DNA from: Blattabacterium cuenoti
Lineage (GTDB): Bacteria; Bacteroidota; Bacteroidia; Flavobacteriales; Blattabacteriaceae
Direction of reading: 5' to 3'
Assembly (NCBI RefSeq): GCF_014251635.1
Contig: NZ_CP059194.1
Location: forward strand, 1-64,000
DNA: 64,000 nucleotides
Under the pieces are notes generated by a model. That model saw nothing but the letters and a program-made list of their open reading frames with translations. It was not told the origin of the DNA and did not search any database. Below, one piece after another: positions 61,210 through 63,903 of the stretch. The position numbers were made by a program, and so were the translations under genes. Within the stretch, counting starts at the first letter, position 1; each line of letters starts with the position of its first letter.

Positions 61210-62400
61210 ATGAATTTACATGAATACCAAGGTAGAGAAATATTGAATTCTTTTTCAATTCAAGTTCCTGATGGAATGCTGGCTTTTTCACCTGAAGAAG
61301 CGGTAAAAGTCGCTAAAATCCTTTTTGAAAGAACTAAAAAAAATTCTTTAGTGATTAAAGCTCAGATACATGCTGGAGGACGAGGAAAAGCTGGTGGTAT
61401 TCAAATCGCAAAAAATTTGGATGAAGTTTATGAAAAATCAAAAAAAATTTTAGGAAAATTTTTGATTACTTCACAAACTTCCAAAAAAGGAAAATTAGTT
61501 CGGAAGATTTTGTTATCTGAAGATGTTTATTTTCATGAATTAAATCCTCCAACGGAGTATTATTTATCCATATTATTGAATCGTGATATAGGAAAAAATA
61601 TGATTATCTATTCTAAAGAAGGAGGAGTAAATGTAGAAGATATTTCAAGAAAAAATAAAATATATACAGAAATAATAGATCCATTATTAGGCCTTCAACT
61701 ATTTCAAACAAGAAAAATTGGTTTGGATTTAGGTCTTCATAATAATGAGTCTTTGAAATTTTTTAGTATTTTTTTATTTTCACTTTATAAGGCTTATATA
61801 GCTTTCGATGCTTTATTATTAGAAATCAATCCTTTGATAAAAACATTTAATCACAAATTCATTCCCGTTGATGTAAAAATTATTTTAGATAATAATGCTT
61901 TGTTCCGTTATAAAAAATACGATTTTATACATGATAGAGATGATCTGAATTCAATAGAAAGAGAAGCGATAGATGCTAAGTTAAATTTCTTAAAATTGGA
62001 AGGAAATGTAGGATGTATGGTGAATGGAGCTGGATTAGCTATGGCTACTATGGATATGATTAAGTCTTGTGGAGGAATTCCGGCTAATTTTTTAGATATA
62101 GGAGGGTCTGCTGATCGAGAACGTGTAGAAAAAGCATTTTATTTGATATTAAAGGATAAATCTGTAAAAACAATATTAATCAACATATTTGGAGGGATTG
62201 TTCGTTGTGATACGGTTGCAGAAGGAATTGTCAATTCTTATTCTAAAATTCATCATGATATTGAAATTCCTGTAGTTGTTCGTTTGCAAGGAACAAATGA
62301 AAAAGTAGCAAAAAAATTGATTAAAAAAAGTTTATTACCTATTTATTTTACTGATACTTTAAAAGAAGCTGCTGATAAGATTCAAGAAATTATAAGATAA
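61210..62400 (+). CDS. sucC: Succinyl-CoA synthetase (ADP-forming) beta subunit
   Basis: Beta chain of succinate-CoA ligase, giving substrate-level ATP in the TCA cycle. The 396-residue protein opens with MNLHEYQGREIL, then an ATP-grasp domain with IKAQIHAGGRGKAGGI (about 48-63) and LEINPL. The C-terminal CoA-ligase domain has GCMVNGAGLAMATMD, NFLDIGGSAD and INIFGGIVRCDTVAEGI. Length is standard. sucD is not adjacent; dnaX follows directly. Confidence 0.96.
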   Translation: MNLHEYQGREILNSFSIQVPDGMLAFSPEEAVKVAKILFERTKKNSLVIKAQIHAGGRGKAGGIQIAKNLDEVYEKSKKILGKFLITSQTSKKGKLVRKILLSEDVYFHELNPPTEYYLSILLNRDIGKNMIIYSKEGGVNVEDISRKNKIYTEIIDPLLGLQLFQTRKIGLDLGLHNNESLKFFSIFLFSLYKAYIAFDALLLEINPLIKTFNHKFIPVDVKIILDNNALFRYKKYDFIHDRDDLNSIEREAIDAKLNFLKLEGNVGCMVNGAGLAMATMDMIKSCGGIPANFLDIGGSADRERVEKAFYLILKDKSVKTILINIFGGIVRCDTVAEGIVNSYSKIHHDIEIPVVVRLQGTNEKVAKKLIKKSLLPIYFTDTLKEAADKIQEIIR

Positions 62401-62412
62401 GATTCATTTTTT

Positions 62413-63903
62413 ATGAAAAAAAATTTTTCTGTATTATCTGAAAAATATAAACCCTTAAAATGGAATGAAGTAATAGGACAAAAAGACATAATTTTTCTTT
62501 TAAAAAAAACAATACAAGAAAATTGTTTATCTAAAATTTTATTTTTCTTTGGTCCAGAAGGAGTCGGAAAAAATACATGTGCTCGGATTTTATCAAATGA
62601 ATTAAATTCTTTTTCAGAATTAGAAAATACCCCTTTGAATCTATTTGAAATTAATGGTCTATTTAATAATTCATTAGAATTTTTTGATAAAATCATCAGC
62701 CAATCTCGTTTTATCCCTAAAATAGGAAAATACAATGTATTTATCATTAATAATATACATATGTTTTCTCAATATTTTTTAAATTTTTTTCTAAGATTCT
62801 TAGAAGAAAAACATACACATGTATTATTCATTTTTTGTGGAACAGAAGAAAGAAAAATTCCAAAATTTATTTTATCACGTTGCCAAGTTTACGAATTCAA
62901 AAGTATTTCTACAAAAGAAATTTTTTTTCATTTAAAAATGATCGCTGAAAAAGAAAATATAAAAGTAGAAAGTGAAGCGTTATTGATTTTATCAAAACAT
63001 GTAAAAGGATCTATTAGTAAAGCTCTTTATTTATTTGATAAATTAATTTTATATAGTGAAAAAAAAATATCCAAAGATTTTATAATTCAAAAATTAGGAA
63101 TTATTGATATAAAGTATTATTTTAAAATAGTAGATTATCTTTTAGATAAAAAAATACATAAAGCGTTTATTTTATTGGATCAAATTTTACAAGAAAAAAT
63201 TGATTCTTATGATTATTTAATTATAGGATTAATCAAACATTTCAGAAATTTATTTTTATCTAAAAATTATGAAACAATTTCTGTTTTGAAATTTAAAAAA
63301 GAAATAATATTCTCTTACGTTGCGCAATCAAAAAAAATGTCTTATTTTTTTTTAGTGAATGCTTTAAATATTTGTTTTCGTTTGAAAAGAGAATATGAAA
63401 GATTAAATCAAAATTATCGATTAACAATCGAAATTTATTTAATACAGTTAGCATATTTGTTTCATAATAATAATAAAAATTCTTCCTTAATAGAAGAAGA
63501 AGAAAAAAAAAATGAAAAATTTTATAAGAATCATGAAATCATTCAATTCTTACAAAAGAATTGGACAGAATTTGTACATAAATTTTATGGGAAAATAAGT
63601 CCTATTTATTTATATTTTTTGAAAAATGAAATAGAATTTCAAATAGAAAAAAATAAAATATTTTTTATTATCCCATATAAATTAGGAAACCATAGTTTTT
63701 TGTTCATTCAAACACATTTTTTAAAATATTTTAAAGAAAAATTAAATAATCTACATTTAGAATTTGAAATAGTGAAAAAAAATTCAGATACAATAAAACA
63801 ATATAATCTTTTATATCAGAAAAATCAATTAATAGAAACATTAATAGAACGGTTGAATTTAAAAATTTCTTCTTCTGAAATACAAGAAAAAAAAAACTTT
63901 TGA
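62413..63903 (+). CDS. dnaX: DNA polymerase III gamma/tau subunit (DnaX), ATPase motifs substituted
   Basis: Clamp-loader ATPase subunit by homology. The 496-residue protein begins LSEKYKPLKWNEVIGQKDI, the DnaX N-terminus, and keeps the order of the AAA+ fold, with the SRC arginine-finger motif at 155-157. The P-loop reads GPEGVGKNT (47-55), with Asn where Thr/Ser normally coordinates magnesium. The Walker B region reads VFIINNIHM, with Asn113-Asn114 in place of the Asp-Glu of IIDEVHM. The Cys4 zinc module of proteobacterial DnaX is absent, as in other Bacteroidetes. A tau-like C-terminal part follows. Delta-prime also lacks ATPase motifs and has SRC, but the N-terminus and overall alignment favour DnaX. 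It starts 13 bases after sucC. Confidence 0.82.
   Translation: MKKNFSVLSEKYKPLKWNEVIGQKDIIFLLKKTIQENCLSKILFFFGPEGVGKNTCARILSNELNSFSELENTPLNLFEINGLFNNSLEFFDKIISQSRFIPKIGKYNVFIINNIHMFSQYFLNFFLRFLEEKHTHVLFIFCGTEERKIPKFILSRCQVYEFKSISTKEIFFHLKMIAEKENIKVESEALLILSKHVKGSISKALYLFDKLILYSEKKISKDFIIQKLGIIDIKYYFKIVDYLLDKKIHKAFILLDQILQEKIDSYDYLIIGLIKHFRNLFLSKNYETISVLKFKKEIIFSYVAQSKKMSYFFLVNALNICFRLKREYERLNQNYRLTIEIYLIQLAYLFHNNNKNSSLIEEEEKKNEKFYKNHEIIQFLQKNWTEFVHKFYGKISPIYLYFLKNEIEFQIEKNKIFFIIPYKLGNHSFLFIQTHFLKYFKEKLNNLHLEFEIVKKNSDTIKQYNLLYQKNQLIETLIERLNLKISSSEIQEKKNF

Follow-up and report, generated by a model that had tools for sequence, protein, structure and literature searches.

The first 64,000 nucleotides of the Blattabacterium cuenoti contig NZ_CP059194.1 (hereafter, the window) contain a dnaX gene, for the gamma/tau subunit of DNA polymerase III, in which residues of the predicted ATPase site have been replaced. 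ATP-driven clamp loading is, to our knowledge, treated as universal for the replication of cellular chromosomes, and the locus raises the question of whether this protein can still act as a motor and, if not, what it is kept for.

The dnaX gene and its motifs

The gene lies in a genome of 635,117 bp assembled as a single contig, and is flanked by sucC and a ClpC-like gene. The downstream product had been named FtsH, an assignment that was dropped as the sequence looks ClpC-like; the conclusions are unaffected. The features are as follows.

61210-62400, + strand: sucC, open reading frame, upstream neighbour of dnaX; selection control and synteny anchor
62413-63903, + strand: dnaX, DNA polymerase III gamma/tau, predicted pseudo-ATPase of 496 aa, identified with NCBIfam models and Foldseek
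62443-62481, + strand: N-terminal KYxP...GQ box (Lys11, Tyr12, Pro14, Gly22, Gln23), intact, invariant across Blattabacterium DnaX
62551-62577, + strand: P-loop GPEGVGKNT, Gly and Lys kept, Thr54 replaced by Asn (from alignment)
62734-62754, + strand: Walker B strand NVFIINN (residues 108-114), Asp113 and Glu114 both replaced by Asn (from alignment)
62875-62883, + strand: SRC motif, kept (from alignment)
63007-63024, + strand: sensor-2 GSISKA in place of G[A/S]xRDA, Arg202 replaced by Ser and Asp203 by Lys (from alignment)
63503-63512, + strand: run of ten A (A10) in the linker, rich in Lys and Glu, that joins collar to tail; in G003, G022 and G041 the run is A11, with a frameshift
63547-63903, + strand: C-terminal tau tail domain, retained; hhalign probability of 96% to tau tails of free-living Flavobacteriales, omega 0.25-0.31

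The reading frame is open throughout, with no stops. The best NCBIfam models are PRK14971 (E=2e-89) and TIGR02397 (E=2e-67), both scoring under the curated cut-offs because of divergence, and the match to DnaX models is better than to other AAA+ families. An AF2 model calculated from a 6-sequence alignment (pLDDT 74, pTM 0.57) was used to search for structural homologues with Foldseek; all of the top matches were gamma/tau chains from the E. coli clamp loader (E 1e-22, TM 0.74 over the target), which are also the solved structures closest in sequence. The predicted fold is that of a clamp-loader AAA+ protein with a collar domain. The loss of a Cys4 zinc module was considered as a peculiarity of this DnaX and rejected, most free-living outgroups also being without the module.

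A first-pass annotation, made from the letters of the window alone, had described the P-loop with Asn54, the Walker B residues IINN with Asn113 and Asn114, and a retained SRC motif and DnaX N-terminus within a long open frame. All of this is borne out by the codons: Lys53 is AAA at 62569-62571, Asn54 is AAT at 62572-62574, and Asn113 (62749-62751) and Asn114 (62752-62754) are both AAT. The loss at sensor-2, where the codon replacing Arg202 is AGT at 63016-63018 (Ser), had been missed. The protein thus has neither a Walker A motif of the form GxxxxGK[T/S], nor the Walker B Asp/Glu, nor the sensor-2 Arg; the SRC arginine finger is present. The KYxP...GQ box is intact, and we take it to be adenine-binding in clamp-loader AAA+ proteins.

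Elsewhere in the same genome, at 159997-163928 (loci L002 and L003), a sequence of 1,931 bp is repeated in exact tandem at a spacing of 2,001 bp with 100% identity. The repeated unit takes in surE, an incomplete ruvB and a portion of an antisense frame, and its two copies meet at a short tandem repeat. The duplication is either very recent or an assembly artefact.

Genus-wide comparison and selection

The dnaX gene was gathered from 49 genomes of Blattabacterium, a genus of cockroach symbionts. It is full length and open in 42, frameshifted in the linker in four (G003, G022, G041, G044), reduced to a remnant in one (G020) and cleanly deleted at the sucC locus in two (G019, G021). The 46 proteins that could be aligned were compared with 15 DnaX sequences, ten from free-living outgroups and five from sister genera, all of which are canonical at the positions considered here. 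P-loop residues G47, G50, G52 and K53 are each invariant in Blattabacterium (46/46). Position 54 is Thr in all 15 comparison sequences and Asn in 41 of the 46, the exceptions being four Ser (AGT) and one His (CAT), each codon one step away from AAT. The Walker B Asp at position 113 is absent in 45/46 (34 Asn, five Lys, three Arg, two Gln, one His, one Asp), and position 114 is Asn in 24, Asp in 14, Glu in seven and Lys in one; the comparison sequences have Asp and Glu at these two positions in 15/15. The SRC Arg is kept in 27 and lost in 19, and the sensor-2 Arg is found in 0/46 Blattabacterium sequences versus 15/15 of the others. The annotation had derived all three of the changes it listed from single base events, which fails at position 114, where Glu to Asn needs two; the intermediate Asp is the residue seen in 14 relatives.

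In a genome as AT-rich as that of this symbiont the Asn codons might be suspected of being sequencing or assembly errors, a refuting circumstance that the annotation itself had named. With Asn54 in 41 of 46 DnaX proteins, and the same residues at both Asn54 and Asn113 in dozens of other genomes, that explanation is refuted, and chance can likewise be dismissed.

Every Blattabacterium sequence holds at most two of five catalytic residues (46/46), versus all five in 15/15 of the comparison set. There is therefore good support for the earlier suggestion that the subunit may have stopped hydrolysing ATP, and it applies to the whole genus; since the residues are missing throughout, their loss is ancestral, at or before the base of the genus. 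The 15 comparison sequences share 84 identical positions, of which Blattabacterium conserves only 18 at a level of 90% or more. Each of the nine nucleotide-binding positions (the Gly and Lys of the P-loop together with the KYxP...GQ box) is among the 18, whereas the five hydrolysis positions are all missing from them, a partition with P of about 1e-7 for a set chosen after the alignment had been seen; we take the sorting of DnaX residues into nucleotide binding and hydrolysis to be established AAA+ knowledge. The alignments show that the residues for hydrolysis (Walker A Thr, Walker B Asp/Glu and sensor-2 Arg) were lost and those for holding nucleotide kept, which is the pattern expected of a protein retained for putative binding and not for hydrolysis.

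The linker is a variable part of the protein. In two loci (L180 and L171, from G062 and G053) it carries several in-frame, near-perfect copies of a repeat of about 30 bases, with FPIQKKDSEK-like units, as a lineage-specific expansion. The poly-A tract lies exactly between the gamma-like and tail parts, with A10 in the window and A11 in the three frameshifted relatives (L007, L010, L159). In Thermus, slippage is known to give short and long forms of DnaX, and by analogy slippage at the linker tract could yield both forms here.

Selection was estimated with an MG94-type codon likelihood written for the analysis. For dnaX, omega amounts to 0.29, 0.29, 0.30 and 0.25 in four clades, with likelihood-ratio statistics against 1 of 361, 287, 322 and 156; the values are approximate at these divergences, each tree-wide estimate assuming one value per segment. 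The two flanking genes gave lower values, sucC 0.13-0.17 and the ClpC-like gene 0.05-0.10. Omega is similar across all four DnaX domains, and the relaxation specific to the ATPase domain that had been considered is not seen. In the clade without dnaN, described below, dnaX has an omega of 0.25 and its five frames contain zero stops, whereas neutral simulation along the clade tree gave 45-50 per sequence. The window gene shows no neutral evolution, stops or frameshifts; the four frameshifted copies of its relatives are uncertain as to pseudogene status. The alignment over related symbionts and the selection test that the annotation had proposed thus yielded a genus-wide loss at omega 0.25-0.30, and Blattabacterium DnaX is, judged from its sequences, a retained pseudo-ATPase under purifying selection in all clades.

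Loader partners, clamp and polymerase

The annotation had also proposed that the loader depends on another subunit, and had called for a search for a second dnaX or holB. The PF13177 (DnaX/HolB) profile was run against all 49 Blattabacterium genomes and TIGR01128 (HolA) against 18, including that of the window. holB was detected in 0/49 and holA in 0/18; besides DnaX itself, the two profiles matched only P-loop ATPases of other, unrelated kinds that look ClpB- and RuvB-like. A protein search of the window's own genome returned DnaX itself and weak RuvB matches, so that a second dnaX, for which the candidates were of RuvB/Clp type only, was rejected. Identical searches detect both holA and holB in free-living members of the order, and holB is a separate gene in the 300-kb sister symbionts (G064, G065, G069, G080, G082) and in a 1.3-Mb relative (G068). 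DnaX is thus the one loader protein detected, dependence on another subunit finds no support, and the second intact dnaX that would have spoken against a degenerate loader did not appear.

The sliding clamp, DnaN, was detected in 41/49 genomes and is strongly diverged; where free-living relatives end in MPVML, nearly all Blattabacterium have MS[TIV]I. A DnaN profile built from Blattabacterium found no match in the other eight genomes, even with E allowed up to 10. In the DnaE tree the eight group together as a single clade, of which five members (G009, G010, G017, G045, G048) have kept dnaX full length and open. Among the 41, dnaN is frameshifted in three (G002, L061/L190; G018, L114; G049, L115), and these independent events outside the dnaN-less clade suggest ongoing erosion of the clamp. 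The converse is seen in G021 (L183), where dnaX is cleanly gone between sucC and the ClpC-like gene and dnaN is intact, providing a natural dnaX knockout beside dnaX-bearing sisters. As each gene can be kept without the other, retention and loss of the two are independent, a pattern at odds with a partnership of loader and clamp. Where present, dnaN has an omega of 0.25-0.30, like dnaX; being under purifying selection, the clamp must still serve something and reach DNA somehow.

DnaE was found in all 49 genomes. Nearly all free-living members of the order carry the clamp-binding motif Q[VLSA]S[LM]F before the OB domain of the polymerase; in Blattabacterium it is gone in 49/49, with lysine-rich sequence in its place (for example, L146). 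At the motif position, SLF is still present in the sister symbiont G065, whose ATPase is canonical and which also has holB. With no holA detected (18 genomes), no holB detected (49 genomes) and QxxLF missing from the polymerase (49/49 DnaE), Blattabacterium does not match the bacterial DnaX3-delta-delta-prime loader with its clamp-bound replicase. The loss of the DnaE motif, together with that of dnaN in a clade that keeps dnaX, suggests that Blattabacterium has abandoned or cut back clamp loading as such. The suggestion of the annotation that the loader works in an unusual way is closer to the evidence than its other proposal, except that it still presupposed a working loader.

The sisters have lost the opposite parts. 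DnaX of the 300-kb symbionts is 343-363 aa long, with a perfect ATPase and no tau tail. In G065, DnaE stops just after the clamp motif and is followed by a thioredoxin-like frame; its OB/C-terminal and tau-binding region was not found in the stretches read, which cover half of G064 and half of G065 and yielded one sister DnaE. Blattabacterium keeps both the tau tail of DnaX and the C-terminus of DnaE. This reciprocal domain loss, in which the sisters kept the ATPase and lost the tail and Blattabacterium did the opposite, is the main support for the tail acting as a scaffold for the polymerase. A strict scaffold partnership would also predict that the DnaE C-terminus evolves faster in genomes without dnaX; this was tested and not seen.

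A proposed scaffold without a motor, and its parallels

On balance we lean towards DnaX being a pseudo-ATPase kept for structure and not for motor work, a nucleotide-bound, tau-type scaffold that holds DnaE in a replisome whose coupling to the clamp has largely gone; the scaffold role is what we infer. The protein would bind nucleotide statically, as its retained residues predict, and would oligomerise through the collar. By analogy with the contact in E. coli and Thermus, the tau tail would tether one or more DnaE, and perhaps the helicase, at the fork, where DnaE may then synthesise with a loaded clamp contributing little or nothing. A slowly dividing symbiont of 0.5-0.64 Mb could presumably afford such clamp-poor synthesis. 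The wider proposition is put forward more tentatively, as a serious possibility just short of a probable one: that replicase and clamp are uncoupled across the genus, with a DnaE that no longer binds beta, no ATP-driven loader left, and DnaX serving as a nucleotide-bound scaffold even after clamp loss in one clade. Blattabacterium seems to replicate its chromosome without the usual ATP-driven clamp machinery.

The deletion or wrecking of dnaX in G019, G020 and G021 means that the gene is dispensable in some lineages, which counts against the scaffold. Together with the four frameshifted copies (G003, G022, G041, G044) and an omega about twice that of sucC, it could instead indicate a relic, released or nearly released from selection, whose open frames are only transient while the genome erodes. 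This we consider unlikely, as the catalytic loss is genus-wide and predates the radiation, yet 42/49 frames are still full length; omega is 0.25-0.30 with likelihood-ratio statistics of at least 156, no stops have accumulated where 45-50 are expected neutrally, and the P-loop Gly and Lys are invariant in 46/46. Three of the four frameshifts are, moreover, one-base changes of the poly-A length, which slippage might rescue or which may be sequencing errors.

In E. coli, ATP binding, and not hydrolysis, opens the clamp. A DnaX homo-oligomer with intact nucleotide-binding residues could conceivably open or trap the clamp by binding nucleotide and nothing more, hydrolysis being slow or absent, in the species that have dnaN, and the persistence of that gene in 41/49 genomes under purifying selection is in keeping with this. 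The proposal is nonetheless improbable: neither delta, the clamp-opening wrench, nor delta-prime was detected, the polymerase motif is gone in 49/49, and DnaX occurs without dnaN in five genomes and dnaN without dnaX in G021. More doubtful still is a normal heteromeric loader whose hydrolysing subunit has diverged beyond recognition. Proteins evolve fast in Blattabacterium and the delta family is poorly conserved, but the searches for holA, holB and dnaX gave only DnaX and P-loop ATPases apparently of ClpB and RuvB type, and the same PF13177 search does detect holB in the 300-kb sisters. We also know of no bacterial loader in which a subunit other than DnaX carries the ATPase, so that a lost partner would not restore hydrolysis.

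If the scaffold is accepted, Blattabacterium DnaX separates the motor role of the protein from its scaffold role, and in the genus the losses form a gradation that takes in the motif, delta, delta-prime, the ATPase, the clamp and the loader. The title of Kinjo et al. 2021 reportedly concerns raised mutation rates in Blattabacterium, on which the losses of DnaX and clamp may bear. We found no report of a dead but conserved DnaX in the literature, where an earlier mention in Blattabacterium papers or supplements is possible.

In comparison to E. coli gamma/tau, Blattabacterium DnaX has the same fold, domain order, P-loop Gly and Lys and a tail after the linker, but is without the Walker A Thr, the Walker B Asp/Glu and the sensor-2 Arg, and no delta or delta-prime partner was found for it. 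It resembles delta-prime (HolB), the natural non-ATPase stator, in being a predicted non-hydrolysing AAA+ subunit that in some members keeps SRC, and differs in its orthology to dnaX by sequence, its tau tail and its strictly kept P-loop Gly and Lys. A further comparison is with DnaX of Walczuchella and other 300-kb sisters (G064, G065, G080, G082), which belong to the same GTDB family and show similar or greater genome reduction. Unlike Blattabacterium, these keep GVGKTT, IIDE, SRC, the sensor-2 Arg and holB, and have lost the tau tail; the Walczuchella paper lists both delta and delta-prime, and scores Blattabacterium simply as having dnaX (PMC3971599).

Replication with little or no clamp machinery has precedents among symbionts. 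Portiera of Bemisia tabaci has lost dnaQ, dnaX, dnaN, holA and holB (PMC5322561), Uzinura is without dnaN and dnaX, and Sulcia is without dnaX (PMC3971599, table 3). In the clamp-less Portiera and Uzinura the genes were lost outright, whereas Blattabacterium retains an inactivated DnaX under selection, even after the loss of dnaN. The polymerase has a parallel in the 2013 DnaE1 survey of Timinskas et al., in the part available to us, where the clamp motif is present in 99% of DnaE1, five Bacteroidetes sequences, unnamed in that part, lack it, and the mechanism of their processivity is asked about (PMC3919608). Blattabacterium DnaE is like these motif-less enzymes; the genus, with 49 genomes, gives that question a concrete case, and the link to a dead loader is, as far as that part of the survey goes, new here.
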